A DNA stretch of 64,000 nt, from NCBI RefSeq assembly GCF_010550695.1, contig NZ_JAAGOB010000014.1, positions 62,001 through 126,000 on the forward strand. Reading direction: 5' to 3'. This stretch comes from Phytoactinopolyspora alkaliphila (GTDB lineage: Bacteria; Actinomycetota; Actinomycetes; Jiangellales; Jiangellaceae). The first letter of the stretch is position 1. Each line of letters starts with the position of its first letter. The translations under genes were made by a program, and so were the position numbers. Below the pieces are notes generated by a model. That model was given only the letters and a program-made list of their open reading frames with translations. It was not told where the DNA came from and searched no databases. Of this stretch, positions 20,506 to 45,456 are shown piece by piece.

Positions 20506-20520
20506 CTAAAGACCTAGGAC
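20506..20520 (+). promoter_or_regulatory. Regulon motif site A (CTAAAGACCTAGGAC)
   Basis: Copy of the 15-bp motif CTWAGGNCCTAGGWC shared by ten intergenic sites in this window; lies 77 bp upstream of the minus-strand dehydrogenase gene at 20429. Presumed operator of the GntR protein encoded at 27029. Confidence 0.65.
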
Positions 20521-23435: not shown

Positions 23436-23450
23436 CCTAGGTCCTAGGTC
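23436..23450 (+). promoter_or_regulatory. Regulon motif site D (CCTAGGTCCTAGGTC)
   Basis: The most symmetrical copy: CCTAGG-T-CCTAGG followed by TC. It lies 41 bp before the dehydratase gene and just before GATAAACT, a possible -10 region, so a bound protein would overlap the promoter. Confidence 0.7.
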
Positions 23451-23491
23451 TGATAAACTGAACCACTCAGTCTCCTGGAGAAGGGCTCCGA

Positions 23492-24667: not shown

Positions 24668-25557
24668 GCGCACCATTGGCAGGCGTCTGGCCGGCGCCGC
24701 TGACCATGTTCGACGCGGATGGCGGTCTTGACGAGGACGCCATGGCGGCACACCTGGACTGGCTCATCACGGCCGGCGTGCACGGGCTGGTGATCAACGG
24801 GACCAGCGGGGAGTTCATCGCCCTGACGGACGCGGAGCGCCGCCGTGTGCTCGAGATCGCGGTTCGCACAAGCGGCGGCCGAGTACCGGTGCTGGCCGGG
24901 ACCGGCAGCTATACGACCGCGGACAGTATTCGACTGACCAGGCACGCCGCTCAGGCTGGGGCAGAGGCGGCTCTCGTGGTGTTGCCGTACTTTCAGCGCC
25001 CGTCCCGGGCTGAGGTACTTGACCACTATCGGGCTATCGCGGCGGCAGTGGAGATCCCGCTCTTCGTGTACAACATCCCGGCCAACGCGGCGACTGCGGC
25101 CGTGACCGTGCCGGACCTGGCCACCCTGTATGCCGAGGGCGTGGTGTGCGGTGTGAAGAACACGGGCCCTGCCGTGCACGTGGTCAACCAACTGCGCACC
25201 AGACTCGACGACGGGTTCCGGATCTTCTATGGCGGGACCACCGCTCCGGTGGAGGCCATGGCCGGGGGTGCACACGGCTGGGTCAGCGGCCTGCTCAACG
25301 TCATTCCGGCCGCGGCGGTGAGTCTGTGGACGGCGATGGTCGATGGCGATCTTGAAGGCGCCCGGCGCGATTGGGGCAGGTTGTGGATCTATCGGGAGTT
25401 GCTGGCCGAGCCGCTGTTCCCCGACGCCAGCGACCTGGCCATTTATCGTGGTCTGTTGCGGGTGTGGGGACGCCCTGCAGGCTACTGCCGGCCACCGCTG
25501 CGGGACTTGGACAGTCACCAGCTGACCGAACTGGAGAAGAAGCTCGCGACAGCGTAG
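24664..25557 (+). CDS. DHDPS/NAL-family aldolase or dehydratase (KdgD/KDG-aldolase-like)
   Basis: Class I Schiff-base lyase of the dihydrodipicolinate synthase superfamily, 297 aa. The family motifs are GTSGEF (46-51), the catalytic Tyr136 in FVYNIPAN and the Schiff-base Lys165 in CGVKNTG. It is coupled to an enolase-type dehydratase and followed by a second one, so the role is more likely in sugar-acid breakdown than in lysine synthesis: either 5-keto-4-deoxyglucarate dehydratase/decarboxylase (giving 2-oxoglutarate semialdehyde) or a 2-keto-3-deoxy-sugar-acid aldolase. Sequence alone does not separate these. Confidence 0.85.
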   Translation: MSAPLAGVWPAPLTMFDADGGLDEDAMAAHLDWLITAGVHGLVINGTSGEFIALTDAERRRVLEIAVRTSGGRVPVLAGTGSYTTADSIRLTRHAAQAGAEAALVVLPYFQRPSRAEVLDHYRAIAAAVEIPLFVYNIPANAATAAVTVPDLATLYAEGVVCGVKNTGPAVHVVNQLRTRLDDGFRIFYGGTTAPVEAMAGGAHGWVSGLLNVIPAAAVSLWTAMVDGDLEGARRDWGRLWIYRELLAEPLFPDASDLAIYRGLLRVWGRPAGYCRPPLRDLDSHQLTELEKKLATA

Positions 25558-25625
25558 TCCGCCGGGAGTCGCGGTGGGGGAGACCATCGGGGATGCGGGG
25601 CGCACCGAACATTGGAGGCAAGAGG

Positions 25626-26912
25626 ATGACGCTTCGCGTCACCGACATCGAGCGTTTCGTGATCAACGTCCCGTTCCGGCATCGCGTGCGGCCGTGGAAC
25701 GAGCTCCTGGTGGCCAAGTGGGGCGTCATCGAGATCATCAAGGTCACCACCAGTTCACGTGACATCGTCGGCTACGGCGAGACATTGGTGCACTACACGT
25801 GGCAGCAGGTCGCCGATGAGACCGTGGGGCGCGTCATCGGCACCAATCCAGCCGAACACCTCGCCGATGATTCACTGGGTGCGGGTTTGCAGATGGCGCT
25901 GTACGACGTCGTGGGTCAGGCGCTCGGCGTGCCGATGTACCGGCTGCTGAGCGAACGCAAGGTGCGTGACTGGTGCCCGATCTCCTGGTGGAACACCAAG
26001 ATGCCGGCCGACCTGCTGGCCGAGGAGGCGCGCGATGCGCTCGCCGAGGGCTATTTGGCCCACAAGATCAAGGTACGTCCGTGGTTCGACGTGCGGGAGC
26101 AGGTCCAGGCGATCAGCGATGTCACGCCTGAGTCCTACCTCATCGATCTGGACTGGAACGGGATGCTGCGCACGCCGGGGGAGGCGTTGCCGGTGCTGCG
26201 AGAACTTGACGCGTGGTCGCGGGTCGGTCTGTTCGAGAGCCCCATCCGCCAGGACGACGTCATCGGGCACGCCCATCTGCGCGGCCGCTTGCCCCGTCCG
26301 CTGGCTGAACACTTCCGGAAGGACCTGTTCCCGGTCTGGATGCGGGACGATTCACTCGACGCATTCGTGGTGTTCGGTGCCGGTGTCAGTGGCCTGATGC
26401 GGCAAGGCCAGCTCGCCGCGAGCTTCAACAAGGAGTTTTGGCTCCAGGTGGTCGGGACGGGGCTGACCACTGCTTTTACCCTGCATATGGGTGCTGTGCT
26501 GAGCCACGCCACGTGGCCGATGGTGACCGGGATGAACACGCTGGCCGATGACCTGATCGTCGAGCCTATCGAGATTCAGCACGGGCTGGCCCGCACTCCA
26601 GAGAGGCCGGGCCTCGGCGTCACAGTTGATCAGGAGGCCATCGAGAAGTACCGGGTAGACACCTCCGACGTGCCAGAGACACCGCTGCGCATCCTAAGAT
26701 TCGACCTCGGTGACGGCCGGCGTCGCTACTATGCGGACATGCTTCAGCTATGGCGAGACTGCCGCGAAGACCGGAACATGCCCGTGCAGCCTCGGAACGC
26801 CAGTCTGAGCTTTCATGACGACGACGGGACGCAGGAATTCGCCGAGACCCATCGGCGGCTGCGTTCCGCCCCGTTGTGGGACATGGATCTTGCCCCGGCG
26901 GCGTGGACCTGA
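25626..26912 (+). CDS. Second enolase-superfamily (mandelate racemase-like) enzyme, divergent
   Basis: 428 aa, MR/MLE fold. A Lys-x-Lys motif (AHKIKVRPW, K147/K149) stands where the MLE/MR subgroups place their base; candidate metal ligands are Asp174 or Asp176 in LIDLDWNG, Glu204 in LFESPI and Glu228 in LAEHF. The second half departs from well-known members (WLQVVGTGLTTAFTLHMGAV) and a C-terminal extension of about 60 residues is unusual. It could be an epimerase or a dehydratase for a different sugar acid. GAGG lies 7 nt before the ATG. Third gene of the operon, 68 bp after the aldolase-like gene. Confidence 0.78.
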   Translation: MTLRVTDIERFVINVPFRHRVRPWNELLVAKWGVIEIIKVTTSSRDIVGYGETLVHYTWQQVADETVGRVIGTNPAEHLADDSLGAGLQMALYDVVGQALGVPMYRLLSERKVRDWCPISWWNTKMPADLLAEEARDALAEGYLAHKIKVRPWFDVREQVQAISDVTPESYLIDLDWNGMLRTPGEALPVLRELDAWSRVGLFESPIRQDDVIGHAHLRGRLPRPLAEHFRKDLFPVWMRDDSLDAFVVFGAGVSGLMRQGQLAASFNKEFWLQVVGTGLTTAFTLHMGAVLSHATWPMVTGMNTLADDLIVEPIEIQHGLARTPERPGLGVTVDQEAIEKYRVDTSDVPETPLRILRFDLGDGRRRYYADMLQLWRDCREDRNMPVQPRNASLSFHDDDGTQEFAETHRRLRSAPLWDMDLAPAAWT

Positions 26913-26968
26913 CATCGCCAGGCAGCCAGAAGCGGCGATGCCCCGTCGCTTATTGCGAATCGTGTGGA

Positions 26969-26983
26969 CTAGAGCCCTAAGAC
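26969..26983 (+). promoter_or_regulatory. Regulon motif site H (CTAGAGCCCTAAGAC), in the gntR promoter
   Basis: Motif copy followed 11 nt later by TACGAT (26995-27000), a likely -10 for the GntR gene. The site would cover the -35 region, which suggests negative autoregulation. Confidence 0.65.
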
Positions 26984-27028
26984 TCTTCTTGCGATACGAT
27001 GTCCCAGGATCGATGAAGGGTGACGGGC

Positions 27029-27772
27029 GTGGCGTCGGAGCAGGTTGGCCCGGAGAAGACGGGCACGGATGAGAGCGCGGGCGGTGGCCGGCGTGTCCTG
27101 ATGGGCGCTAGCGTCGCTGGCAAGATCGCTGAGTACATCCGACGGGAATCGCTTGTCGAAGGAGACCCGCTGCCGTCGGAGGCCGTCCTTGCCGACGAGT
27201 ACAACGTCAGCCAGCGGGTTGTGCGTGACGCGCTGAGAGCGTTGAGCCAGCAGGGGGTGATCCGCACCCGGCAGGGCAAACGTGCGGTTGTGAGCAGCCT
27301 GCGTCCAGTCGCCGTCCGCGGGTACTTCCAGCATGCGGTGGCGGGCGATTCGTCCGCTATTCATGAGCTGCTAGAGCTGCGCCAAGCGATCGAGACGCGG
27401 GCGGCCGGCAGCGCGGCACTGCATCTGACCGCCGATGAGTTGGCGAATCTCGCCGCGGTCCTCGACGAAGCCGAAGCCGAGGATCTGACCACCGCACGGC
27501 GGGTTGAGCTAGATCTCGCGTTTCATCGGGCGATCGTGCGCCATTCCGGCAACCGGTTCTTCGACGGGATCCTCGAAGTTCTCACCGACACGCTCACCGA
27601 GGAACGGCGACGCGGGAAGCAACTCACCGAACATGCCGGCGGTACGCACGAGACCAGCGACCGCGAGCATCGCTCGATTCTGCGTGCGCTCGAGGCGCGT
27701 GACAGCTTCTTAGCCGAGCAGGCCATGCGGGCTCACCTGGAACGGGTCCGGCAAACCTTTCGGGCCATGTAG
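27029..27772 (+). CDS. GntR-family regulator, FadR subfamily (FCD domain)
   Basis: Predicted controller of the 17.9-53 kb regulon, 247 aa. The winged helix-turn-helix covers about 20-95 (LPSEAVLADEYNVSQRVVRD, then IRTRQGKRAVVSS). The all-helical FCD effector domain follows, with metal-ligand candidates Asp and His in LDLAFHRAIVRHSGN, His in REHRSIL and His in MRAHLERV. GTG at 27029 is preferred because AAGGG lies 8 nt upstream; a GTG at 27020 would sit on that ribosome site. FadR-type proteins bind 17-bp odd-centred dyads, the geometry of the repeated motif seen at ten sites, including its own promoter. The inducer is probably a sugar-acid intermediate. Confidence 0.9.
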   Translation: MASEQVGPEKTGTDESAGGGRRVLMGASVAGKIAEYIRRESLVEGDPLPSEAVLADEYNVSQRVVRDALRALSQQGVIRTRQGKRAVVSSLRPVAVRGYFQHAVAGDSSAIHELLELRQAIETRAAGSAALHLTADELANLAAVLDEAEAEDLTTARRVELDLAFHRAIVRHSGNRFFDGILEVLTDTLTEERRRGKQLTEHAGGTHETSDREHRSILRALEARDSFLAEQAMRAHLERVRQTFRAM

Positions 27773-32042: not shown

Positions 32043-32630
32043 TAGGTCATTGGTTGCGGGGGTGAGCACGTAGGTGGACCTTTAAACATTGGAATGCCGC
32101 GGACCAGCTTCTCCATGAGCTCAAGGCCTCGATATGTCCTAGGACTCTAGACTGTCGACTAGGCCTCTGCGATACGCAAGGTCGGTATGGGCGATGCCCA
32201 TCATCGACGTAGGGCCGCATCGTGAGAATCAGAGGTCACCATCGGTCACCCGCTGCCGGGTGTGAACTGAGTCCCCGATGCGGCCGAGGAGCGCTACCAC
32301 GGCAACCAGCAGTCCGGCACAGGCAGGCGTCTAGGTGGGATGCGAACTCGTCGATCTGCGCTTCACCCATGAGGCAGGCGTATGAATCAAAGCCCAGGTG
32401 GCGCGTGGCCAGCCGGTTTTCTGCTACTTAGCCGCCTCGCACTGCATGGCCTGTGGGTGCCTCCAGAGAGATAGTTCGTGGGCGTCCTCAATCCATGGTT
32501 GGGGACACCTTGACGACGGCGCGCGCTGCGGGGCGGGATGGTGGAGCGTCCTCATGCCACGAGTTCCAGGCCGAGTCGCGCCTAACTCTTGACGACTTAT
32601 GATCCAGCCGACTAAAGTCTCGCTATCAGT
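32043..32630. other. 588-bp stretch without a supported gene
   Basis: Short frames exist on both strands but none has a ribosome site with coding-like composition or a recognisable domain. It contains motif site F, which no intact gene follows. I read it as remains of a deleted regulon gene between sites F and G. Confidence 0.5.
32136..32150 (-). promoter_or_regulatory. Regulon motif site F (CTAGAGTCCTAGGAC on minus strand), orphan
   Basis: Good match to the motif, 94 bp from site E. It may serve the minus-strand oxidoreductase operon as a second operator, or mark a lost plus-strand gene. Confidence 0.55.
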
Positions 32631-32645
32631 CCTAGGTCCTAGGTT
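32631..32645 (+). promoter_or_regulatory. Regulon motif site G (CCTAGGTCCTAGGTT)
   Basis: Motif copy 179 bp before the DUF4838 gene. A TTGACG hexamer (32589-32594) lies upstream; if it is a -35, the site falls just after the start point. Confidence 0.65.
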
Positions 32646-32823: not shown

Positions 32824-35352
32824 ATGTCCTTAGACCCGGAAATCCACTCCCGCGATTTCACGCGCCGGCAGGCACTCACCGTAGGTGGCGCCGCCGGAGC
32901 CGCCGCGATCATCACCGGCACGGCGCTCGGAGCCGGTGCGGCCGTGGCATCGACGAGGAGCGCTCCGGCCGGTGCCATACCGGTTGTCTACGACGGCACA
33001 GCCCAGGCGGTCGTCGTCACGGAAGACGACGCAAGCGACGCGGTGCGGCACGCGGCCGCGGAACTCGTCACCTTCGTCGCCAAGTCGACGGGCGTCACGC
33101 TGCCCACCACCTCGCTACCGTCGAACCCGCCGACGGGGGACGTGACGGCCATATACGTGGGCTTCACTGGGCCGACCAGCCATCCGGTGCTGCCACGAAT
33201 CCTGAACCGTTCGGCTGACGATGGATTTGTCATCACGCCATACAACGGCAGTATCACGATCACGGGCTCCACCGAGTGGGGCACACTTAACGGCGTCTAC
33301 GAGTTCCTAGAGCGCTACGTCGGCGTCGCGTGGCTCATGCCGACGACTATCGGGGAGGACGTTCCCCAGCGATCATCCCTTGCGGTACCGCGTCGGATCG
33401 TGCGTTCCGCACCCGCATTCGACCAGCGCTCAATCAGCCCGCTCCTGATCGAGCCGGGAACGGGTGGACCGTATCCGGACCAGTACGTATGGGCGCAACG
33501 CAACAGGCTGCAGGGCAACTACAACAGACCCGTCGAGTTCCATCACAATCTCCACACCTTTTTCCCGGTGTCGGAGTACGGAGACCGGCCCGAGTTGTAC
33601 GCGAACGGCGTCGTACCTGCACCGGGGGTCCTCATCGGATGGCAGCCCGCGTTCAGCAACCCGGAGACAGTCGATATCGTCGTGGCCGACATCCTGGCGA
33701 TGCTTGCGGCGGATCCCTCCCTCACATCTGTATCTCTGGGTGTGAACGACGGGGCATATCCCAGCTACGAGACCGGGCTGCCGATCCCAGAAACCTACTA
33801 CGGCTGGGTGAACGAGGTCGCATCGCAGGTCACAGCGGTCCATCCGGACATGAGGTTCGGCCTTCTCGCCTACCACGACCTCGAGGTTCCGCCGCCGTTC
33901 GACCTGCACCCCTCCGTGATTCCCTTTCTCACCGAGGACCGCTACGCCTGGATCGACCCCGCGACGCGCCAGCACCGCGAGGACCAACTACTCGAATGGT
34001 CGCAGTGCGCGACCGAGCTTGGTACCTACGACTACCTCTATGGGGCTCCCTACGCCGTGCCGCGCATGTACCTGTCGCTGCTGGCCGACGTGTACCGAAC
34101 GACGTACGACCTCGGAGTGCGCTACCACTACGCGGAGCTGTACCCGAATTGGGGTGAAGGCCCCAAGCCCTGGGTGATCTCGCGACTGCTCTGGGATCCC
34201 GACGCCGAGGTGTCTGACTTGATTGAGGAATGGTGCCGCCGGGCAGTGGGTAGTCAGGCCGCCGATTCGCTCGCGGACTATTACCAACTCTGGGAGGACG
34301 TATGGACGACCGACATCGCCCAGAGCCCGTGGTTCATCAGCCACCGGACGTATCAGCCGTTCGACTCGCCGAGCTACCTGGCTGCCGTCGACGCGACGGT
34401 CCTGGATGAGGCCGAGGCGCTGATGAACGCCGTGGTCGCAACCGCGGAGACCGCGACGCCGGAACAGCGGGAGCGCGCCCTCACTCTCGCGAGCGCACAT
34501 GAGTACTACGACGCCACGGCTCGGCTGTTCCCACGCGCGGTCCCGGTCCCTGATACGACGGATGCCGCGCTCGAAGTCGCCCAGTCTCTCCTCGCCAACC
34601 TGCCGACCCGCGAGGCGCTCATGACCCGCCGTGCGGACTGGCTCGCGGAGGCCGCGACCGACCCGATCCTCGTACAGCCGCTCGACCCCACCCGCGGCGG
34701 GCTCACCGGGCTGTCGGTGTACAACCATTATCCGATATGGGCATTGATCGAGTTTCTACGCGCCCACGAACCGTCCGGAGGCGAGGTCACCCAGTGGCTC
34801 GCCGATCACCGTAACGATCACCCCTTGTTCGCGCGCGCCGCGGACGTGATCACGGCGGCGCTCACGCCGAGCGTCAGCATCTTCACGAACTCCGGGTTCG
34901 AGGACGGCATGGCCGGCTGGTCGAGCTGGGTGACCTCGAGAGGCGTGCACAGCATCTCCACGGCGGAGGCACGCTCCGGAAGCCAATCGTTGGAGGCATT
35001 GTCCGTCGACCGTGGAGGTCCCATTCAGGTGCTCGACGCCGGTCCGGGGATCCTGGCATCGCAGGTCTGGGTGAAGGCCAGTGCGGACATCGGCGAGGCG
35101 ACCATCCAGTTCGCCTTGAACCTCTATAACAGTGCCGGGCAGCAAGTCGGCACGGTCCGTGGCGAGTCCCTGCGGCTGCAGGCGTACGTAGGCGAGTGGC
35201 GGTCGCTCACGAGCGTGGAGGAGTTCGTCGCTCCGGCGGACCCGGCACGGGCGGTGGCCACCGCTCAGTACATTCCTATCCTGACCGGTCTCCCCGAGGG
35301 TGCCCGTGTGTGGTTCGATGACGCCGAGGCGTATTTCGTTCCCTACGCCTGA
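32824..35352 (+). CDS. Tat-secreted DUF4838 protein (glucuronidase/hexosaminidase-like barrel) with C-terminal CBM
   Basis: Exported 842-aa protein with a twin-arginine signal (FTRRQALTVGGAAGAAAII, residues 12-30). Residues ~55-185 form the alpha-glucuronidase/GH20b-type N-terminal domain (AVRHAAAELVTFVAKSTGV; LNGVYEFLERYVGVAWLMPT). A barrel-like DUF4838 region follows (about 190-560) with FGLLAYHDLEVPPP and VRYHYAELYPNWGEGPKPW, whose acidic residues are catalytic candidates. A helical part and a C-terminal beta-sandwich CBM (NSGFEDGMAGWSSWVTSRG to VWFDDAEAYFV) complete it. GGAGG sits 6 nt before the ATG. Likely a glycoside hydrolase acting outside the cell on uronic-acid or amino-sugar glycan. 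Cotranscribed with the DUF2264 gene 41 bp downstream. Confidence 0.82.
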   Translation: MSLDPEIHSRDFTRRQALTVGGAAGAAAIITGTALGAGAAVASTRSAPAGAIPVVYDGTAQAVVVTEDDASDAVRHAAAELVTFVAKSTGVTLPTTSLPSNPPTGDVTAIYVGFTGPTSHPVLPRILNRSADDGFVITPYNGSITITGSTEWGTLNGVYEFLERYVGVAWLMPTTIGEDVPQRSSLAVPRRIVRSAPAFDQRSISPLLIEPGTGGPYPDQYVWAQRNRLQGNYNRPVEFHHNLHTFFPVSEYGDRPELYANGVVPAPGVLIGWQPAFSNPETVDIVVADILAMLAADPSLTSVSLGVNDGAYPSYETGLPIPETYYGWVNEVASQVTAVHPDMRFGLLAYHDLEVPPPFDLHPSVIPFLTEDRYAWIDPATRQHREDQLLEWSQCATELGTYDYLYGAPYAVPRMYLSLLADVYRTTYDLGVRYHYAELYPNWGEGPKPWVISRLLWDPDAEVSDLIEEWCRRAVGSQAADSLADYYQLWEDVWTTDIAQSPWFISHRTYQPFDSPSYLAAVDATVLDEAEALMNAVVATAETATPEQRERALTLASAHEYYDATARLFPRAVPVPDTTDAALEVAQSLLANLPTREALMTRRADWLAEAATDPILVQPLDPTRGGLTGLSVYNHYPIWALIEFLRAHEPSGGEVTQWLADHRNDHPLFARAADVITAALTPSVSIFTNSGFEDGMAGWSSWVTSRGVHSISTAEARSGSQSLEALSVDRGGPIQVLDAGPGILASQVWVKASADIGEATIQFALNLYNSAGQQVGTVRGESLRLQAYVGEWRSLTSVEEFVAPADPARAVATAQYIPILTGLPEGARVWFDDAEAYFVPYA

Positions 35353-35393
35353 GCGGAACCGTGGCACCAACCCCCGTCGTTCTCGGAGGAAGC

Positions 35394-37304
35394 ATGAACA
35401 GCTCGCGGCCTCCGTTCGATCAACGGGAGGCTCTCGATCTCTGGTCATGGCTGGTCGCGGGTTGGGCAGGATCACTGGACCAGTCCGGTTCCAGGACCCT
35501 CACGGACGGCATCCACTGCCCGTACGACGAAGGGGGCAGCTTCGAGGGTGTCACCCGCATGATGTGGGGGCTCGGTGGTTGGCTGACACGCTCGGACCGC
35601 CCGTCGTCGGTGCACTGGCGAGGGGTCGACTACGACATCACGCACCTCGCCCGACAGGCGCTGCTCCATGGCACCGACCCCGGCTCACCCGGCTACTGGG
35701 GCGAGTCGGCCTGTCCGGGCAGCGCCGACATCTGGATGGTCGAAGCCGGCCACGTCGCATTCGCGCTCTGGCAGTCGCGCGAGCGGATCTGGGACCAGCT
35801 CCTGCCGGCCGAGCAGGCTCAGATCGTCCGCTGGCTGGAGGCGTGCGGTCACCATCCCGGCCGCTTCGGCAGCAACTTCGCGCTGTTCTGGGGTCTCAAC
35901 CACGCATCCCGCAAAGCCCTCGGCCAGCGTTACGACCAGCGGGTCATCTCCGACGTGCTCGACTACTGCGATCGCATCTACGCCGGTGACGGCTGGTTCG
36001 ACGACGGTCCCGAACGCGGCACGGACCACTTCGACGACTACAACTACTGGGCCTTCACCTCGCATTTGCTGGCGATCATGGAGGTCGAGGGCGATAACGC
36101 CCGGGAGTGGCGCGATAGGAGCCGCGATCGCGTCCGCCTGCAGATGGAGTCCTTTCCCCACTTCTTCTCGGTGGACGGCGCCTACGCCGAGCATGGACGC
36201 AGCCTCGCCTACAAGTTCGCGCGTCTGGGCGCGCCGATCTGGGCGCATCACCACGGGTGCTGGCCGCATAGTCCCGGAATGCTACGACGACTCGTCGGCA
36301 GGCACCTACGGTGGTACATCGATCGAGGCGCCGTGCGGGCCGACGGATCGCTACGTCAGGCGCTGACCAGTCAAGGCACACAGGACATCCGGGAACGGTA
36401 CATCTCAACCGGCTCCGCGTACTGGTCTATGCAGGCGTTCGGGGGACTCTGGTCCCTTGCCGCCGACGATCCGTTCTGGACGAGCCCGGAGGAGGACCTC
36501 CCGGTAGAGACCGGTGACTTCATCCGGGTCATGCCGACAACCGGTTGGGTGCTCGCAGGGCACCGCCGATCGGGTCACGTGCAGCGGTTCTCCGCCAAGG
36601 GCGGCGATCATCCCGCCAAGTACGGCAAGTACCACTACTCGACGCTCGCACCTTTCAATGCAGGACTCGTCGACGGTCTTCCGGCGATCGACGGCATGTT
36701 GTCACTGCGTTCCGGCGACGAAACCGGTCACCGATGCCGTTCCTCGGTGTCGGCCGTCGGCGAGCCCGGATGGTTGCGCTTCCAGTACCGGCAGACCCTC
36801 GGAGGCGACGATCACGAACTCGAGACGGTCGTCCTCGTGCTCGGCAACAGCCATCTCCGAGTGCACCGGATCCGGCCCGCGGGCGACGAGCGGGCTCTCG
36901 ATGCGGTCGAGGGTGCTGCACCGCTCGCCTATGCGCCCGGTGAGCAGATCGAATGCGGTGTCGACTGCGGCGGGACACGGTCGTGGGCCCTCGTGCGCGA
37001 ACGGTCTCGATCCAGATTTGTCGCTATTCAAGCGATCCGCGGATACAGCCGCGCGAAACAACCACGGGCGTGGCGTCACGGCCATCACATCAACAGCGTC
37101 TACGGCCGCAACGTCATCCCCCGCCTCGTCGTCGACCGTGTCGATCCGTCGCAGGTCTACGTGTCCCTGGTGACGATAGGCACTGAGGACGACCGGCGGC
37201 CAGCGGCAGAGTCCGTCCAGGTCGACTGGCGGAGCGACGATATCGTGGAGATCGACTGGCCACCTCATGGACGCGTGAACGTACCCCCGCTGGGTCTCGG
37301 CTGA
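35394..37304 (+). CDS. DUF2264-domain protein, predicted (alpha/alpha)-barrel carbohydrate enzyme
   Basis: 636 aa, no signal peptide. The N-terminal half is an alpha-helical toroid with DUF2264 landmarks: FEGVTRMMWGLGGWL, NFALFWGLNHASRKALGQRY and ERGTDHFDDYNYWAFTSHLL, rich in Trp, Asp and His; the second half is beta-rich. Proteins with this domain accompany polysaccharide-degradation genes, and the fold resembles unsaturated-uronyl hydrolases and polysaccharide lyases; no activity can be claimed from sequence alone. GGAGGA is 3 nt from the ATG. Second gene of the site-G operon; it ends 94 bp from the convergent SGNH gene, a gap with a small GAGGCCGAGGCCTC palindrome at 37377-37390. Confidence 0.8.
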   Translation: MNSSRPPFDQREALDLWSWLVAGWAGSLDQSGSRTLTDGIHCPYDEGGSFEGVTRMMWGLGGWLTRSDRPSSVHWRGVDYDITHLARQALLHGTDPGSPGYWGESACPGSADIWMVEAGHVAFALWQSRERIWDQLLPAEQAQIVRWLEACGHHPGRFGSNFALFWGLNHASRKALGQRYDQRVISDVLDYCDRIYAGDGWFDDGPERGTDHFDDYNYWAFTSHLLAIMEVEGDNAREWRDRSRDRVRLQMESFPHFFSVDGAYAEHGRSLAYKFARLGAPIWAHHHGCWPHSPGMLRRLVGRHLRWYIDRGAVRADGSLRQALTSQGTQDIRERYISTGSAYWSMQAFGGLWSLAADDPFWTSPEEDLPVETGDFIRVMPTTGWVLAGHRRSGHVQRFSAKGGDHPAKYGKYHYSTLAPFNAGLVDGLPAIDGMLSLRSGDETGHRCRSSVSAVGEPGWLRFQYRQTLGGDDHELETVVLVLGNSHLRVHRIRPAGDERALDAVEGAAPLAYAPGEQIECGVDCGGTRSWALVRERSRSRFVAIQAIRGYSRAKQPRAWRHGHHINSVYGRNVIPRLVVDRVDPSQVYVSLVTIGTEDDRRPAAESVQVDWRSDDIVEIDWPPHGRVNVPPLGLG

Positions 37305-37398: not shown

Positions 37399-38490
37399 CT
37401 ATCTCTGAGTGGCCGCCCGTGTCGATGCATCAAGACTCGGCGGCAAGACAGTCCGCAGTCTAGCGAGGATCGACCGGCCGAGTGCGACGTATCCCTCCGG
37501 ACCGGGGTGCAGCCCATCGTGCAGGAGGGCTGCCCGCTCGAGACCGAACACGTCGAGGCCGGAGATCAGATGGATGTCGCCGTCATCCTCGCTCAACAGA
37601 CGTGCCGCCTCTTCAACGGCGGACCTGACCTCGTGCAAGGTCATGCCGGTGGGGCCGACGGCGGTCTCCCGTTCCGGGCTGATGATGGGAGACAGCACGA
37701 CGATCGGCTTCCCGGGGTGGCCATCGCGAACCGTGCTCAGGAACCCCAGGATGGCCGGCAGAAACGACCGCTCGGTGAAGGTGCCCGAGCCGTAGACGTT
37801 GATCCCGAGGCACGTGATGATGACGTCAGCGGGCCGGTCCCGGATCAGCCGGGCGATCATCGGATCCAGGTGGCATTCGCTGCCGAAGCCCAGACAGGTC
37901 AGGTCCATGCCCAGATCCGCCGCCACCAGCGCCGGCCATGTCCTCGAAGGCGAGGCCGCAGCCCGGCATTGGGTGATCGAGCTACCGTAGGTGACAAGAT
38001 GGGGACGGACCGCGCCGGACGCGGGCCGGACGTCGGCGCCGACGTTCACCGCCAGAGACGTGAGCCGGACGTCCCCGTACTGCGGCAGCCACAGCTCCAC
38101 CGTCTTCATGCCAGCGGGTAGCGCATGGAAGGCGAAGGAACCATCCCCGATGATGGAGGACGACGCCACGTAGGAACCGTCAATGACCAGGTCAATCAAC
38201 GGCGTGCGCGGCTGCTCATCGACCATTGCGGTCCCGCTGATCGTCGTAGCGTCAGCGCGGAACTCCAGGCGGATTCCCGCTTGCATCGCCGCTCGACTGC
38301 GAAGCTGCTCGCCGGGGAAGAGGTGGATCTGGCTGACCGGCAGCCGCCATCCTCGCGACCATCCGCTCGCGTGCTCGACCTCGACAGCGCCGCCCCAGGT
38401 TACTCGGTCGTCTCGAAGGTCGACATCATGGACCGCTGCTCCATTGGATTCTCCGGTGGCGCTCATGTGGATCTGTCCGTCCCGTCTCAT
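37399..38490 (-). CDS. SGNH/GDSL-type hydrolase
   Basis: Probable carbohydrate esterase, 363 aa, cytoplasmic. An N-terminal beta domain (about 20-165) precedes the SGNH fold: nucleophile Ser in VTYGSSITQCRAA (about 175), block III-like CLGINVYGSGTF, and Asp/His in HDGLHPGPEGYVALG (about 330). It has no recent kinship with the GxDLY protein at 3240-4328 beyond the fold. Starts at 38490 (ATG) or 38466 (ATG) are both possible; the first is 17 nt after the upstream stop. Last gene of the Opp-type operon; deacylation of imported oligosaccharide is the likely task. Confidence 0.82.
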   Translation of the reverse strand: MRRDGQIHMSATGESNGAAVHDVDLRDDRVTWGGAVEVEHASGWSRGWRLPVSQIHLFPGEQLRSRAAMQAGIRLEFRADATTISGTAMVDEQPRTPLIDLVIDGSYVASSSIIGDGSFAFHALPAGMKTVELWLPQYGDVRLTSLAVNVGADVRPASGAVRPHLVTYGSSITQCRAAASPSRTWPALVAADLGMDLTCLGFGSECHLDPMIARLIRDRPADVIITCLGINVYGSGTFTERSFLPAILGFLSTVRDGHPGKPIVVLSPIISPERETAVGPTGMTLHEVRSAVEEAARLLSEDDGDIHLISGLDVFGLERAALLHDGLHPGPEGYVALGRSILARLRTVLPPSLDASTRAATQR

Positions 38491-38509
38491 CACCGTGTTT
38501 GACGGATCT

Positions 38510-39550
38510 CTAGAGAAGGCCAGTCTGCTGACGCGCGCGTTCGATGATGTCGATCTGGCGGCGGACGCTGTCCGGTGTGACGTACAGGTCGGCGCCGTGG
38601 CGGATGGTTCGCGCGAGGTGTTCGTAGTAGAGCAAGGTGCGTTTGCCGGTGGCAGGTTCGGGGGTGATGGTCTCTTCGTGCCAGTCGATGTGTTCCCCGG
38701 TGCCGTAGGCTCGGCCAGGTGCTGCGCCTTCCGCGGGTTGGAGTTCGTCGACGCTGGTGGGGTCGTACCACTTCACGTGCAGTCCGTCGGTTGTGCTGGT
38801 GAGGGTGCCGGTGGTGCCGGCGACGAACCAGGCGGGTTGTGGCATTGCCACCACGTTGCTGGATTCGAGGTCGACCAGCGGGCCGCTCTTGGGTTTGAGC
38901 ACCAGTTTGGCGTGGTCTTCGGCGTCGCCGGCGGAGACTGTGCGCCTTAGGTCGGCGAGCAGCTCGATGGGTCCGTCGTCGATGAGCAGGAGAAGCTGGT
39001 CGAGGAAGTGCGAGGCGGTGTTCGGTAGTTCGCCTCCGCCGAACTTGCGCAGGGTCTGCCAGTCCGCGCGTCGAGCGTACCGGTGTATCGCGCGGCGGAT
39101 CAGCACCAGTTCACCGAGTCGGCCGGAGTCGATGACGTCGCGGATGGCCAGGAACGTCGGTTCGAAGCGGTTGTTCTGAAAGCACGTGAGCACGCGCCCG
39201 GCCTTCTCGGCGGCCGCGGTCAACGTGTCGACCTCGGCCGCGGTCTGTGCCAGCGGTTTCTCTACGACGACGTGCTTGCCGGCGGCGAGCGCGGCGAGGC
39301 CGAGCGGGACATGCGTGTGCGAGGGTGTGGCCACGATGGCGAGTTCGACGTCGGCGTTGGCGAGGAAGGCTTCGGGGTCGGTGTAGCTGGTGCAGCCAAA
39401 TCGGGTTTCTGCTTCGGTGCGGCGGTCGGGGTCGGGGTCGGCGGCGGCGACGACCTGGTATTGGTCGAGTTCGGCGAGTCCGGCGGCATGGATGTTCCAT
39501 CCGCTGCGGCCCAGGCCCATGAGGCCTACCCGGATCGGTGCTTCGGTCAC
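38510..39550 (-). CDS. Gfo/Idh/MocA-family oxidoreductase
   Basis: 346 aa. Rossmann motif VGLMGLGRSGWNIHAAGLAE at 8-27 and intact catalytic Lys in VVVEKPLAQTAAEVD (about 97). The C-terminal domain contains GGGELPNTASHFLDQLLLLI, with His in the family's catalytic position. GTG start at 39550 with GGAG about 10 nt upstream. It lies between the peptide/oligosaccharide-binding protein and the SGNH hydrolase genes of the Opp-type operon, so it should act on the imported compound or a sugar derived from it. The third intact Gfo/Idh enzyme controlled by the same motif. Confidence 0.88.
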   Translation of the reverse strand: MTEAPIRVGLMGLGRSGWNIHAAGLAELDQYQVVAAADPDPDRRTEAETRFGCTSYTDPEAFLANADVELAIVATPSHTHVPLGLAALAAGKHVVVEKPLAQTAAEVDTLTAAAEKAGRVLTCFQNNRFEPTFLAIRDVIDSGRLGELVLIRRAIHRYARRADWQTLRKFGGGELPNTASHFLDQLLLLIDDGPIELLADLRRTVSAGDAEDHAKLVLKPKSGPLVDLESSNVVAMPQPAWFVAGTTGTLTSTTDGLHVKWYDPTSVDELQPAEGAAPGRAYGTGEHIDWHEETITPEPATGKRTLLYYEHLARTIRHGADLYVTPDSVRRQIDIIERARQQTGLL

Positions 39551-39609: not shown

Positions 39610-41421
39610 CTAGCCGTCAATGGTGACTCCCTTGGTGGTGAAGATGGTGGGATAGATCCACGGCTTGAGGTTCTGCACCCGTGGTTTGACCAGGAGGTTG
39701 TAGCCGCCCCAGAGCACGGGGATGAGCGTGTATGTCTCGTTCCACGCAGTCGATGCCTGGATCAGCAGGTCGTTCTGCGTCGCCTCATCTCGCTCCCCAA
39801 TGGCTTCCCGGAGCAGGGTGACGCATTCCTCTAGCTCGGGGTGACGGTTGCCTTCGATCATCGCGTACACGTCGGCCGGCGCGGTGCCGTTCTCTTGGGC
39901 AGCCAGCACGTCCTCGCCGATCTCGGGCGGTACCAGGTTCGTGCCGTTGATGGTCGGCGCGCCGGGAATCGCGGACTGGGCGGTAGCGAGGAATGTGGGT
40001 GGGTTGATCGCTCCGTTCTGGATGTAGAAGCCGGTGTAGTCCTCCGGGTGCACCGCGTCGCGTTTCTCGACGTAGACGCCGATCTCGACGATGTCGAGTT
40101 CAACGTTAATGTTGAGGTTCTCGCGCCACATCTGGGCGATTGCTTCCACCCACGGGCTTTGCTGAAAGTCCAGCAGGCTAACGGTCGGCATGCCCTCGCC
40201 GTCGGCATAACCGGCATCTTGCAGCAGGCTCTGGGCTTGGTCCACGTTGTATTCGATGCCGGGAACTTGGTCGTATTCCGGGACCGCGGACGGAACGAGC
40301 GAATTTCCGGCAACGGCCGGCTTGGCCACGCCTGCCAGCGCCTCACGGTCGATGGACATGGCCAGCGCCTGGCGGACGCGTACATCATGAAGAGCCGGGT
40401 TCTTGCTGTTCATGACGATGAGCCGGCGGACCTGGTTGGTGGGTGAGGTCATGAGTTCGTCGGCGACGTCGGAGGTGGTGACGGCTTCGAGGTCGTCCTC
40501 GATGCGGCCGGTGATGTCGATCTCGCCTTGCTGGTAGGCGAGCAGGTCGGCTGTGGTGCCGCCGTCGTTGAACGTCACCTCCCACCGATCCAGGTAGTAG
40601 CTGTCTGCGTCCCAGTAGTGTTCGTTGGGCAGCAGAACGGCGCCTTGATTGACCCGGAATGAGTCAAGCACATACGCGCCATTGCTGACCCAGTTCTCCG
40701 GGTCCAGCCACGCCTCGCCGAGTTCCTCTACGGTGGCTGGGTGAAGCGGCAGCGCCCAGTATCCGGCGAGATGGATGAGGAAGTCGGGGTTGGGCTCTTC
40801 AAGGGTGAGCTCGAAGGTGGCGTCGTCGAGGGCGGTCACGCCGACGGTAGTGAAGTCGGTAGTCTCGCCGTTCATGTAGGCGCCTGCGCCGACGATACGG
40901 GTGGTTGAGGCATTGAACGACGGCGCTCCTTCGCCGGCGATGCCAGGGGTGAGGATGCGCTTCCAGTTCCACTCGAAATCGCTGACGGTGACAGGGTCGC
41001 CGTTGGACCACGTCGCGTCGGAGCGCAGGTGGAAGGTGTAGGTGAGGCCGTCGTTGGAGATGTCCCAGGACTCCGCCACACCGGGAAGCACCTGGGAGGG
41101 ATCGTCGGCGTCGATGACGACGAGGCCTTCCCAGAGCCCGATCATCATGATCTGCCCGAATGACGAATTGCCCGACACTGCCGGGTCGAGGTGGGTGACC
41201 GGGATCATGGATTGCCGTAGTGTGCCGCCGCGCTGCGGCTCGCTTCCGCCACCACTATTGTTGGCGTCGTCCTCGTCGCTGGTGTTGTTGTCACTGCCGT
41301 CGTCGCCGAACCCGCACGCTGCGGAGGCTGCCGCGGCTGCGGCGATGGTGGCGGCGAGAAACGTCCGTCGACCGATGAGTTGTGGCACGTTGTCGACTAT
41401 GTTGCGGGTAGCGCGTGTCAT
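39610..41421 (-). CDS. Tat-exported substrate-binding lipoprotein, family 5 (Opp/Dpp type)
   Basis: 603 aa. A twin-arginine signal (GRRTFLAATIAAAAAA) leads to a lipobox ending at Cys36 and an Asp/Asn/Ser linker. The family 5 core is clear: GVAESWDISNDGLTYTFHLR, ATWSNGDPVTVSDFEWNWKR, and VRQALAMSIDREAL. Though named for peptides, this family also carries oligosaccharides such as plant cell-wall and xyloglucan fragments; the regulon context favours an oligosaccharide. GAAGGAG precedes the ATG. Placed fourth in the operon, after the permeases and ATPase, an order less common than binding protein first. Confidence 0.9.
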   Translation of the reverse strand: MTRATRNIVDNVPQLIGRRTFLAATIAAAAAASAACGFGDDGSDNNTSDEDDANNSGGGSEPQRGGTLRQSMIPVTHLDPAVSGNSSFGQIMMIGLWEGLVVIDADDPSQVLPGVAESWDISNDGLTYTFHLRSDATWSNGDPVTVSDFEWNWKRILTPGIAGEGAPSFNASTTRIVGAGAYMNGETTDFTTVGVTALDDATFELTLEEPNPDFLIHLAGYWALPLHPATVEELGEAWLDPENWVSNGAYVLDSFRVNQGAVLLPNEHYWDADSYYLDRWEVTFNDGGTTADLLAYQQGEIDITGRIEDDLEAVTTSDVADELMTSPTNQVRRLIVMNSKNPALHDVRVRQALAMSIDREALAGVAKPAVAGNSLVPSAVPEYDQVPGIEYNVDQAQSLLQDAGYADGEGMPTVSLLDFQQSPWVEAIAQMWRENLNINVELDIVEIGVYVEKRDAVHPEDYTGFYIQNGAINPPTFLATAQSAIPGAPTINGTNLVPPEIGEDVLAAQENGTAPADVYAMIEGNRHPELEECVTLLREAIGERDEATQNDLLIQASTAWNETYTLIPVLWGGYNLLVKPRVQNLKPWIYPTIFTTKGVTIDG

Positions 41422-41519
41422 CGCTGGAACTCCTTCACTGAAGCTATGACGACTTGACCCGGCCGGATACTGGCGGGTTGTGTGTCTCGGACCGCGCCCG
41501 TGCGCGGGTGTTTGTTGTT

Positions 41520-43412
41520 CTAGGTGCTGTTTGCACCGGTCGTTGCTGCGGACCGGGTAGCGCGTGCGCCGTGGGCTGTGGTGCGGACCCAGTGGCGTGG
41601 GCTGGATTCGATCAGCTGGCCGGTGGTGTCTATTGGGGGGGTGTCGCGGCTGGTTGTGCCGGGGGTGGGTGCTGGCTGGCGGTGGATGGGCAGGACCGCG
41701 GCGAGGAGAGCTTGGGTGTAGGGGTGCTCGGGGTGGGTGAAGAGTTCCTGGGTGGGGGCGGCTTCAACGATGTGTCCGTTGGCCATGACGATGATGCGGT
41801 CGCACAGTTGCTGGGCCACGGCGAGGTTATGGGTGATGAACAGCATTGACAGCCCGAGCCGGTTCTTGAGGTCTTGGAGAAGATCGAGGACTTGGGCTTG
41901 GATGGACACGTCGAGTGCGGAGGTGGGTTCGTCACACACGAGCAGGTCGGGTTCCAGCGCGAGGGCGCGGGCGATGGCGACGCGTTGTTGCTGTCCGCCG
42001 GAGAACTGCCTCGGGTATTGATCGACCCGCTCCTGCGGGATCCCGACGAGGTCGAGAAGTTCGATCGCGCGGGCGCGGCGGCTCGTGGTGGTGCCGACCT
42101 TGTGCACCCTTAGGGGCTCAGCGACGTTCGCTGCGATGGTCTGGTGCGGGAGCAGAGAGGCGTAGGGGTTCTGGAACACCATCTGCACCCGTCGTCGCCA
42201 TGCTTTCAACGGCGCACCGGTGAGGGTGAGCACGTCGGTGCCGTCGAAGGCGACACTGCCGGCCGTGGGGTCAATGAGGCGAGTGAGCAGCCGGGCCAGG
42301 GTCGATTTCCCACTGCCGGATTCGCCGACCACGCCGACGGTCTCACCCTTGGTGATGGTCAGGTCCACGTCTGTGACGGCGGGAACGTCGCCTCCGCGGC
42401 CGTGGAACACCTTCGCCAGATCCCGCACCAGCACCAGATCCCGCCCACCGCCAGCTGACTCGGTCCTGGCGGCACGCGGCTGAATGCCGATGGATTCACT
42501 GCCAGTCGCGGTGGTTTCGCCGGCGGTGTCAGTAGAGGTGTCGCCGCCGTTGCCGTTGTTGTCGGTGGTGGTGTCGAGGGCGGCGTTGAGGAGTTGCTGG
42601 GAGTATGCGTGTTGGGGTGTGGTGATGAAGGAGCGCAGGGGTGCTGTTTCGACGACGTGGCCGTGGCGCATGACGATAATGTCGTCGCAGAGGTATTTCG
42701 CGACGCCGAGGTCGTGGGTGATCATCACCAGTGCGAGTCCGTCTTCGCGGCGCAGGTCTTTGAGGAGGTCGAGGACTTGGCGTTGAACGGTGACGTCCAG
42801 GGCGGTGGTGGGCTCGTCCGCGATCAGCAACTGCGGCCTTGCGGCGATGGCCATGGCGATCATGGCACGTTGGCGCTGCCCGCCGGAGAGCTGGAACGGA
42901 TACATCCGGATCCGCCGGTGTGGTTCCGGGATCCCGACCCTCTCCAGCGCCTCGACCGCGAGGTTCAGTGCTTGCTTGCGGTTGGTGGTGCCGTGCCAGC
43001 GCAGATGCTCGGTCAACTGCACCTTGAGCGTGCGGGTGGGGTTGAGCGCGGACATGGCGTTCTGGAACACCATCCCGATCCGGGCGCCACGCACTCGCCG
43101 CAACTGTGTCTCGGGCATGCCGATGAGGTCCTGCCCGTCGAAGACGGCCTGACCGGTGACGTGTGCCGTCTCCGGGAGCACCCCGAGTATCGCCCGCATC
43201 GACACCGTCTTCCCAGACCCGGATTCCCCGACGATCGCAACCGACCCGCCGGCTGGGATCTGCATCGACAACCCGTCCACGACGGTGGACCCCGGTCCCG
43301 TTCGGGGCCGGGTGAACGTTACCCGCAGATCGGTCACGGACAACACCGTCCCGCCTGAGGTATGCGATGTCGTCGCACGCCCATCTGCGGTTGTGCTCGA
43401 GTTCGTGCTCAT
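41520..43412 (-). CDS. Fused double ATP-binding protein of Opp/Dpp-type ABC importer
   Basis: 630 aa; a DppD-like and a DppF-like ATPase joined in one chain. First domain: Walker A GESGSGKTVS (about 55), signature LSGGQRQRAM, Walker B LLIADEPTTALD. Second domain: Walker A GESGSGKSTLARLL (about 375), signature FSGGQQQRVAIARA, Walker B LLVCDEPTSALDVS. A low-complexity Thr/Asn/Gly linker (about 290-320) separates them. All ATPase residues seem intact in both halves. ATG overlaps the permease stop (ATGA). Powers the importer formed with the proteins at 43409-45456. Confidence 0.93.
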   Translation of the reverse strand: MSTNSSTTADGRATTSHTSGGTVLSVTDLRVTFTRPRTGPGSTVVDGLSMQIPAGGSVAIVGESGSGKTVSMRAILGVLPETAHVTGQAVFDGQDLIGMPETQLRRVRGARIGMVFQNAMSALNPTRTLKVQLTEHLRWHGTTNRKQALNLAVEALERVGIPEPHRRIRMYPFQLSGGQRQRAMIAMAIAARPQLLIADEPTTALDVTVQRQVLDLLKDLRREDGLALVMITHDLGVAKYLCDDIIVMRHGHVVETAPLRSFITTPQHAYSQQLLNAALDTTTDNNGNGGDTSTDTAGETTATGSESIGIQPRAARTESAGGGRDLVLVRDLAKVFHGRGGDVPAVTDVDLTITKGETVGVVGESGSGKSTLARLLTRLIDPTAGSVAFDGTDVLTLTGAPLKAWRRRVQMVFQNPYASLLPHQTIAANVAEPLRVHKVGTTTSRRARAIELLDLVGIPQERVDQYPRQFSGGQQQRVAIARALALEPDLLVCDEPTSALDVSIQAQVLDLLQDLKNRLGLSMLFITHNLAVAQQLCDRIIVMANGHIVEAAPTQELFTHPEHPYTQALLAAVLPIHRQPAPTPGTTSRDTPPIDTTGQLIESSPRHWVRTTAHGARATRSAATTGANST

Positions 43413-44368
43413 GCGTGGTCCTCCTCGCTGGAGTCGAACGCATCGCGGAGACCGTCGCCCATCCAGGTGAACGCGAGCATGGTGAGGCTGAACAGTGCTA
43501 GGGGCGCGGCGATCAGGTGCGGGTTGGCCAGCACATAGGTGTATCCGTCGATGATCATCCCGCCCCAGCTGGGTGTGGGCGGAGCGACCCCCAGACCGAG
43601 CAGCGCTAGCCCGGACTCGGCGATGATCGCCCCCGGGATCGCGAAACTCGTGGTGACCAGCAGCGGGCCGACCGCGTTCGGCAGAATGTGGCGCACGGTG
43701 ATCGCCACCCCGCCGGTGCCGATCGACCGAGCCGCCTCGACATACTCAAAGTTCTTGATCTTCAATACCTGTGCGCGGACCAGGCGGGCCTGGGTGACCC
43801 AGCCGGCGATCCCGATCGCCAGGATGATCGCGAACACCGAGCGTCCCATGATCACCACCAGCAGCACCGAGAACAGGTAGCTCGGGAACGCATACATCAC
43901 ATCGGTGAACGACATCAGCAGTGACTCGGCCTTGCCGCCGCGCCAGCCTGCCCACAGCCCCACTCCGAGCGCCACGATGAGCGCGACCAGCTCGGCGGCG
44001 AATCCGATCATCAACGCCGTGCGCAGGGAGTACAGCAGCCGGGAGAACACGTCGCGGCCCAACTGGTCCGTGCCTAGCAGATGACCATCGGCCAGCGGCG
44101 GCAACAACCGCGCGGTCAGGTCCTGCTCGGTGTACGAGTACGGCGCAAGCACCGGCGCCGCTACGGCGACCATCACCAGCACTCCGACAAAGATCAGACT
44201 GCCCAACGCAAGCCGGTTGCGTTTGAACCGGACCCAACCTCGCCCCAGCTCGCTCTGCGCCCGCATCCGGTCACCGGAACCACCACCATGACCAGGACCA
44301 TCGCTAGTGTCGTTAGCCGATGCAGGAGCCGCGGCGATGCCCTGCCTGATCTGCTCAAGACTGCTCAT
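43409..44368 (-). CDS. Opp/Dpp-type ABC permease (DppC-like)
   Basis: 319 aa from the ATG at 44368, which overlaps the DppB-like stop (ATGA); longer upstream frames run inside that gene and are rejected. A polar 45-residue N-tail is followed by the first helix (LALGSLIFVGVLVMVAVAAP), the conserved LLGTDQLGRDVFSRLLYSLR loop, and the EAA-type loop YVEAARSIGTGGVAITVRHI near residue 205. Membrane half of the importer for the presumed oligo-uronide. Confidence 0.92.
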   Translation of the reverse strand: MSSLEQIRQGIAAAPASANDTSDGPGHGGGSGDRMRAQSELGRGWVRFKRNRLALGSLIFVGVLVMVAVAAPVLAPYSYTEQDLTARLLPPLADGHLLGTDQLGRDVFSRLLYSLRTALMIGFAAELVALIVALGVGLWAGWRGGKAESLLMSFTDVMYAFPSYLFSVLLVVIMGRSVFAIILAIGIAGWVTQARLVRAQVLKIKNFEYVEAARSIGTGGVAITVRHILPNAVGPLLVTTSFAIPGAIIAESGLALLGLGVAPPTPSWGGMIIDGYTYVLANPHLIAAPLALFSLTMLAFTWMGDGLRDAFDSSEEDHA

Positions 44369-45456
44369 CCCCGCGCCCCCATACTCGTCGCCGCGTCCGG
44401 CGATCCCGCAGCAGGTGACCCGCCACCACCGCCGTCGTGATCGGTGTTGTTGCCGAGAACCGGCGAGCCCCGCAACATCCTGGGGCGTTTCGGCCGGCGC
44501 CACCTACTGTCGGCGCGTTGCTGATGCCGGATCCTCGGATCGAGCAAGCCATAGGCGAGATCCACAATCAAATTCATCACCATCAACACCAACGCGAAGA
44601 ACAACGTGGTGCCCATCAGCAGCGGCATATCCCGTGTCCTCGCCGCCAGCGTGAACAATCGCCCCAAACCCGGAATCCCCAGGAGGACTTCCACAAAGAC
44701 GGTCCCGGTCGCCAGGGCGGCGAAGATCGGGCCAACCACCGTGACCAGCGGGATCAACGAGTTCCTCAGTACATGGCGCACCAACACCACACGTTTGGTG
44801 CCGCCTTTCGCCAACGCCGCCACCACATATTCATCCCGCAGCGCCTCCAGCATCGATGAGCGCACATATCGCGCCAGCATCGCCGTGGGCTGCACCGCCA
44901 AGGCCACCACTGGAATGATCATGTATTCGGGACCATTCCACCCCCGCACCGGCAACCAGCCGAATCCCACCGAGAAGATCAACACCAGCACCAACGCGAA
45001 CAGATACCCCGGCAGCGCCTGGATCGTGGTCAGCGTGAAAATCGACCCGTAGTCGGCAAGCTTGTCCTTCTTCACCGCCGCCAGCATCCCGATCGGAATC
45101 GCGACCAGCAGCGTCAGCAACGTCGCCGGCACCGCCAACGACAGCGACACCGGGAACGCCTCACCGATCAACTCCTCCACCGTGGTCTGCGGGTACTTAT
45201 ATGTCGGCCCCATGTCCCAGGTCGCCAAGCCCCGCATGAACGTCGCGTACTGCTCCCACGCCGGCACCTCGTCGCCATACCGACCGGCCAAACCACCGTC
45301 ATCTGACGACGCCTGATCACCCAACGCCGTCGAACCGACATCGGCCAGATCCGAGAACGACCCCGGAACCAGTTGCAACAGCCCAAAGGTGATGATCGAC
45401 ACCACGACGAGCGACAGCGTCAACCGCACCAACCGACGAGCCATGAATCTCAACAT
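44365..45456 (-). CDS. Opp/Dpp-type ABC permease (DppB-like)
   Basis: 363 aa. N-terminal RLTLSLVVVSIITFGLLQLVPG matches the DppB family; the EAA-type loop YVVAALAKGGTKRVVLVRHV lies near residue 215. The insert between helices 1 and 2 (about 35-90) is longer than usual. The C-terminal ~55 residues after DLAYGLLDPRIR form an unusual Arg-, Gly- and Pro-rich tail that overlaps the next gene; it may be an artefact of a late stop. GAGAGGAG precedes the ATG. First gene of a six-gene operon driven by the promoter at 45621-45649. Confidence 0.92.
   Translation of the reverse strand: MLRFMARRLVRLTLSLVVVSIITFGLLQLVPGSFSDLADVGSTALGDQASSDDGGLAGRYGDEVPAWEQYATFMRGLATWDMGPTYKYPQTTVEELIGEAFPVSLSLAVPATLLTLLVAIPIGMLAAVKKDKLADYGSIFTLTTIQALPGYLFALVLVLIFSVGFGWLPVRGWNGPEYMIIPVVALAVQPTAMLARYVRSSMLEALRDEYVVAALAKGGTKRVVLVRHVLRNSLIPLVTVVGPIFAALATGTVFVEVLLGIPGLGRLFTLAARTRDMPLLMGTTLFFALVLMVMNLIVDLAYGLLDPRIRHQQRADSRWRRPKRPRMLRGSPVLGNNTDHDGGGGGSPAAGSPDAATSMGARG

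Follow-up and report, generated by a model that had tools for sequence, protein, structure and literature searches.

A divergent, partnerless relative of the uronate dehydratases beside a GH67/GH115-like exported protein in Phytoactinopolyspora alkaliphila

The DUF4838–DUF2264 operon

Phytoactinopolyspora alkaliphila carries two adjacent plus-strand genes encoding proteins of the DUF4838 and DUF2264 families, within a stretch of 64,000 nucleotides (contig NZ_JAAGOB010000014.1, positions 62,001 to 126,000; the whole of this stretch is referred to below as the window). The first gene (32824..35352) encodes a protein of 842 amino acids matching Pfam PF16126 (E 2.7e-38, 132.3 bits against a cut-off of 26.6), with a twin-arginine-type leader (TRRQALTVGG..., judged by eye), a GH67N-like N-terminal region, a DUF4838 region at residues 173–487 and a C-terminal part without assignment. 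The second (35394..37304) encodes a protein of 636 amino acids matching PF10022 (E 9.4e-63, 212.8 bits against a cut-off of 25), with no leader visible by eye. The two genes are separated by 41 bp if DUF2264 translation starts at the ATG at 35394, although translation could also begin at an in-frame GTG (35361). Given this short gap and the GGAGGA ahead of the ATG, they are likely to form a single transcript. A pair of copies of a palindrome, motif G, lies upstream (32629..32645, plus strand), consisting of GTCCTAGGTC at 32629–32638 and an overlapping one-mismatch copy at 32636–32645. The original prediction of a secreted DUF4838 protein and a cytoplasmic DUF2264 protein encoded by one operon under motif G agrees with this layout. 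The assessment reached here is that the DUF2264 protein belongs to the uronate-dehydratase family as a divergent member without its usual partner, beside a GH67/GH115-like exported protein, and does not found a new class.

Motif G and the regulon

Motif G (GWCCTAGGWC) is centred on CCTAGG and is common to upstream regions in the window and in two related clusters, one in a genome referred to here as G014 and the other in Occultella aeris. The window contains six exact sites (starting at 20511, 21072, 23441, 32136, 32629 and 45638), against 0.17 expected, and none of 100 shuffles reached this number. The motif was read from the window before being tested, so its presence there is expected; the informative part is its near absence from the rest of the 5.5 Mb genome, which has only seven exact sites in all, six of them inside the window. 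No exact site was found in the two home-genome flanks searched (L048 and L049), and the reversed control pattern occurs at 58 genome sites, versus seven for motif G. The CCTAGG core alone has 14 occurrences in the window against 6.8 expected, a roughly twofold enrichment. In G014, five exact sites lie in a single 20-kb stretch (L046), whereas the neighbouring 35 kb (L045 and L047) has none, and the motif stands upstream of the DUF4838 gene in both related clusters. The concentration of six of the seven genomic sites in the window makes a motif G regulon likely.

The sites in the window precede an operon for a beta-hydroxyacid dehydrogenase, an amidohydrolase and a MocA oxidoreductase, a beta-helix gene, an operon for a ManD-like dehydratase, a DHDPS-family protein, an enolase-superfamily protein and a GntR regulator, a MocA gene pair, the DUF4838–DUF2264 operon and an importer operon. 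The two-gene operon appears to lie inside a tight regulon, and this gene set looks like a dedicated catabolic, perhaps glycan-catabolic, regulon, of which the GntR-FCD protein (27020–27772) may be the regulator. The sole exact site outside the window (contig C7:16391–16400) may mark a distant regulon member.

The DUF2264 protein and the uronate dehydratases

According to a 2025 report (PMC12269599), BcGDH from Bacteroides caccae and BT_3677, both placed in GH154, are beta-D-glucuronate (4,5-)dehydratases and not hydrolases, and BcGDH primes terminal glucuronate for GH88. Y229, R285 and Y289 were proposed as the catalytic residues of BcGDH, with Y229 as the base; ten alanine mutants had no activity, although the authors warn that their substrate is poor (PMC12269599). 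In a single-sequence search of solved structures, the window DUF2264 protein matched 9o4u (E 4.2e-19), 9nwf (E 2.9e-18) and 8oi4. The alignment to 9o4u, a beta-D-glucuronic acid dehydratase, spans about 330 residues. Since the 9o4u fragment matches all ten residue letters of the numbering in PMC12269599 and 9nwf has an alanine at the R285 position, where an R285A mutant was made in that work, both chains are taken to be its BcGDH. The two proteins are 24% identical, and the window protein covers positions 43–352 of the 353 of PF10022, with about 270 extra C-terminal residues past the match to BcGDH.

The active site was mapped on an alignment with 43 homologous rows, drawn from 57 loci with phmmer matches to BcGDH or the window protein (E 1e-15), with identical or contained frames removed. 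These rows are stop-to-stop open frames, at least five of which (L018, L028, L030, L035 and L039) reach the end of their locus; L030 and L039 overlap within a single gene, which brings the number of genes behind the 43 rows down to at most 42. Of the ten mutated residues, eight are conserved in the window protein. Y229, R285 and Y289, the residues proposed as catalytic, correspond to Y216 (codon 36039..36041), R269 and Y273 (codons R269 to Y273, 36198..36212), and five of the seven non-catalytic residues (E74, R78, N177, F181 and Y354) correspond to E51, R55, N161, F165 and Y336. The other two, N176 and W178, are replaced by S160 and F162 (S160-N161-F162, codons 35871..35879; all on the plus strand). 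The same three catalytic residues are present in all 43 rows, which include a second DUF2264 protein of this genome and consist of frames of at least 578 amino acids, likewise extending past the DUF2264 domain. All 43 have tryptophan at position 178, in contrast to the phenylalanine of the window protein, and tryptophan is also present in three DUF2264 proteins from outside the class, one haloarchaeal and two rhizobial. Position 176 is more variable (N in 32 rows, I in five, C in five and S in one). On the tree, the window protein falls outside both large groups, and its identity to any row is at most 32% over the BcGDH columns. By sequence it belongs to the family, with a catalytic core that probably works and an altered pocket. 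The mutants proposed originally, of acidic residues in the GTDHFDDYNYW segment, would miss the likely residues: the match to the proposed base is a tyrosine, Y216, and the other two likely residues are R269 and Y273.

The DUF4838 protein

A search of solved structures with the single DUF4838 sequence found no meaningful relative, and a profile of 15 rows recovered the N-terminal regions of alpha-glucuronidases of GH115 (7pxq, E 2.5e-7) and GH67 (1k9d, E 3.1e-7). The GH67 match has a second collinear stretch, in the RLLWDP region. The likeness to these enzymes is confined in Pfam to Glyco_hydro_67N, which falls below its cut-off (21.2 bits against 24.3); neither Glyco_hydro_67M nor a GH115 domain was reported in the protein at E 0.001, and the home genome has no GH67 (67M) match. 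A profile–profile comparison with three GH67 proteins (hhalign) aligned 70 N-terminal columns, with a probability of 54% and E 1.3e-4, so the GH67 catalytic residues could not be mapped onto the DUF4838 protein.

Columns invariant in the 15 rows (alignment A6) include D309, R202, Y350 and W392. In a wider set of 17 rows, which includes fragments and two pieces of one locus (L007), D309 is kept in 16 and E438 in 13. As the best-conserved acids of the alignments, D309 and E438 are candidate catalytic residues. Mutation of the acids in the LYPNWGEG segment had been proposed; E445, within it, is kept in the closer rows only, and the two best-conserved acids lie outside, E438 by a single residue before the segment.

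DUF4838 is an uncommon family in the phylum: of 396 genomes sampled, four match it at E 0.001, the home genome among them, and three of the four exceed the cut-off. A DUF4838 gene of Burkholderia pyrrocinia lies within a polysaccharide-assembly locus, consistent with work on carbohydrates. Scans of viral contigs found no relative of DUF2264 or DUF4838. Literature searches found no paper by the accession PF16126, and none with DUF2264 or PF10022 as its title subject. Both domains nevertheless already bear names in print: DUF2264 is the former GH154, now uronate dehydratase (PMC12269599), and PMC9870897 (Table 3) gives a DUF4838 protein the label GH163. The idea that these were domains without assigned chemistry was thus mistaken, and that of possible new CAZymes is unsupported, because CAZy names are already in use for them. 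The suggested resemblance to enzymes of uronic-acid glycans fared better and is the best reading of the match of DUF2264 to 9o4u and of the DUF4838 profile to GH115 and GH67.

Conservation in related clusters

The DUF4838 protein is 73% identical to its counterpart in G014 and 76% identical to that in Occultella aeris (L044), which was the one DUF4838 relative obtained from a contig scan. Both relatives keep the ManD-like, DHDPS, enolase, GntR, dehydrogenase, amidohydrolase and MocA genes; of the importer and the GDSL gene, both present in G014, the 22 kb of Occultella examined show neither. The DUF4838–DUF2264 pairing is conserved in neither. At the position of DUF2264 in the window, the DUF4838 and GDSL frames of G014 face each other with their stop codons 8 bp apart, and the sole DUF2264 match of G014 lies at 0.57 Mb on the contig, versus 4.27–4.31 Mb for the cluster. 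Both relatives keep DUF4838 without DUF2264 in the stretches examined (55 kb in G014 and the 22 kb in Occultella), so the DUF2264 gene appears from these comparisons to be an accessory gene that the cluster either acquired in this genome or lost in the relatives. G014 also has four DUF4838 paralogs within 26 kb (C1:4266525–4292307; L045 and L046), with 31–73% identity to the window protein.

Partner enzymes in DUF2264-bearing genomes

DUF2264 occurs in 62 of 393 genomes of the class, and PF07470 (GH88/GH105) in 51, with 45 above the cut-off. PF07470 is present in 26 of the 62 genomes with DUF2264 and in 25 of the 331 without it (Fisher p 1.3e-10, ignoring kinship and with the overlap counted by hand). 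In eight of the 26 genomes with both, the two lie within 10 kb of each other (read by hand from the tables). GH88 was found within 9 kb of DUF2264 in all three plasmid neighbourhoods picked by hand from 262 records (Halostagnicola, Ensifer and Neorhizobium), one of which also has KduI and KduD. The remaining 36 of the 62 DUF2264-bearing genomes have no PF07470 match, so genomes that have a uronate dehydratase but no known unsaturated uronyl hydrolase may be common.

The second DUF2264 protein of the home genome (contig C23) has tryptophan at position 178 and cysteine at position 176. Its gene is one gene away from a heparinase-II/III-like gene (a sub-threshold Pfam match), which is adjoined by a gene for a LacI-type regulator.

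Dehydration of a saturated terminal uronate is also the logic of P29_PDnc, an ulvan oligosaccharide dehydratase (PMC8511951, as cited in PMC12269599). According to PMC12269599, this enzyme is unrelated in sequence to GH154 and is paired with GH105.

Other genes of the window

The Opp-type importer is encoded on the minus strand (39610..45456) and comprises, by Pfam, an SBP_bac_5 binding protein, a protein with two ABC ATPase stretches and OppC-like and OppB-like permeases. It has motif G upstream (45638–45647). The two genes of the operon had been said to bracket this importer; they do so only in the sense that one protein would act outside and the other inside the cell, and not by gene position, since the importer genes, on the opposite strand, all lie to one side of the operon. 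Downstream of the importer genes, on the same minus strand, lie genes for an SGNH/GDSL hydrolase and a Gfo/Idh/MocA oxidoreductase (37399..39550; Pfam), and the GDSL protein is 72% identical to its G014 counterpart. Motif G is followed on the plus strand by the genes for the ManD-like dehydratase, the DHDPS-family protein, a second enolase-superfamily protein and the GntR-FCD regulator (23441..27772), which are 67–91% identical in G014 and Occultella aeris. The minus-strand genes for the beta-hydroxyacid dehydrogenase, the amidohydrolase 2 protein and the MocA oxidoreductase (17855..20520, with motif G at 20511–20520) are 60–79% identical in both.

A pectinase was considered for the beta-helix protein at 21321, for which the matches to solved structures cover the N-terminal third only. 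A creatininase-family protein, a DUF4432 aldose-epimerase-like protein, a short-chain dehydrogenase/reductase (SDR) and a beta-propeller lactonase are encoded in one run at 45769–49382, with a one-mismatch copy of motif G just upstream (49470–49479), and may form a further operon of the regulon. The SDR (47506–48237) was dropped as a candidate uronate dehydrogenase, having no solved relatives at E 1e-15. Two minus-strand frames, 5027–7486 (820 amino acids) and 9840–12947 (1036 amino acids), have no Pfam family above cut-off, the first with a sub-threshold GH127-like match.

The window cluster has decayed in part. Remnants of genes that are open frames in G014 lie at four places: a MocA oxidoreductase with a broken frame at 27849–29004, part of an FAD-dependent oxidoreductase at 29177–29683, 41 residues of terminal sequence from a second DUF4838 protein at 29797–29919, and parts of an MlrC/M81 protein at 52266–53098.

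Interpretation

The favoured reading, to which a probability of about 0.55 is given, is that of a glycan-catabolic operon encoding an exported relative of glycosidases and an internal uronate dehydratase. It is built on homology, residue conservation, the operon layout and the shared motif. Outside the cell, the Tat-exported DUF4838 protein, probably a TIM-barrel relative of GH67 and GH115, would trim a glycan containing uronic acid, and the Opp-type importer would take up the resulting oligosaccharides. Inside, by analogy with BcGDH, the DUF2264 protein would take the C5 proton of a non-reducing-end uronate, with Y216 as the base and R269 helping, and the O4 hydroxyl would then be expelled with Y273 as the acid, yielding a 4,5-unsaturated uronide and water. 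The substrate, the fold and catalytic activity of the DUF4838 protein and control by the GntR-FCD protein are parts of this scheme that we infer.

Several observations weigh against it. The N176S and W178F substitutions lie in the active site, at positions where BcGDH alanine mutants had no detectable activity (PMC12269599). The terminal branch of the window protein has a length of 1.68, against 0.57 for the next longest and a median of 0.13 (the branch of BcGDH, the rooted outgroup, is not comparable). The protein scores 214.6 bits with the family model, against at least 319.8 for the other full-length matches among the matches listed, and matches this model only from position 43. The home genome has no PF07470 match at E 0.001 (two candidates were scored) and no KduI match, although both searches succeeded in control genomes; the steps that usually follow uronate dehydration are therefore missing here. 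DUF2264 is absent from both related clusters in the stretches examined, and an AlphaFold model of the DUF4838 protein from two sequences was discarded (mean pLDDT 33.4).

Part of this evidence suits a protein that has drifted to another reaction, on another sugar acid or linkage or as a lyase, with the Tyr/Arg/Tyr machinery kept and the substrate pocket changed. The phenylalanine unique among the rows, the serine at position 176, the long branch, the low model score and the lack of GH88/GH105 and KduI matches would all follow. Such a drift is a possibility to be taken seriously, if a minority one, given that all three proposed catalytic and five further active-site residues are kept and that the gene sits in a carbohydrate regulon. 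The DUF2264/GH154 proteins may instead be true glycosidases (beta-glucuronidases or beta-galactosidases), in line with the first reports on BT_3677 and on the 8OI4 protein: 8oi4 was deposited as a beta-galactosidase, and earlier reports are cited in PMC12269599. The same paper puts the hydrolase signals seen in the authors' preparations down to contamination, reports that BcGDH and BT_3677 act as dehydratases and describes an active site lacking typical glycoside-hydrolase architecture, all of which makes hydrolysis very improbable. The gene may also be a chance passenger, inserted in the operon and unrelated to the substrate of the regulon, as the DUF4838 and GDSL genes of G014 stand almost end to end without it and the DUF2264 gene of that genome is far from the cluster. 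This seems improbable for an intact 636-codon frame closely following DUF4838, preceded by a ribosome site and encoding a nearly complete active site, which has remained whole while several neighbouring cluster genes decayed.

For the DUF4838 protein, the alternative to an alpha-uronidase is an endo-beta-N-acetylglucosaminidase of the GH163 type. The window protein does contain the DUF4838 domain that bears the GH163 label in PMC9870897, and a characterised GH163 enzyme is endo-acting on complex N-glycans, cutting GlcNAc-beta1,2-Man (PMC10154615). Yet the profiles recover alpha-glucuronidases, with O-GlcNAcases appearing weakly (E about 0.04), and no chain named GH163 or endo-GlcNAcase was among their matches at E up to 1 or 0.1, although the presence of such a chain among the structures searched is unconfirmed. 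The substrate context of the window looks like sugar acids, and regulon enzymes of this type do not seem to point to amino sugars; a GH163-type activity is thus unlikely, without being far-fetched.

A more novel proposal, tentative and rather doubtful, is that the protein represents a separate dehydratase lineage with a rebuilt active site (W178F, N176S) in a pathway independent of GH88/GH105. The unsaturated uronide would be removed or opened by another enzyme of the regulon, for example a MocA oxidoreductase or the GDSL protein, and then processed by the ManD-like and DHDPS-family enzymes, without KduI. The 36 DUF2264-bearing genomes of the class without PF07470 would be further places to look.

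These results correct the view that neither domain has a chemistry and redirect mutagenesis to the likely catalytic residues. The DUF4838 family, scarcely named in the literature searched, gains a defined regulon in which to search for its substrate. If the dehydratase assignment is true, the operon tests whether uronate dehydratases work without the GH88/GH105 partner of the published model.

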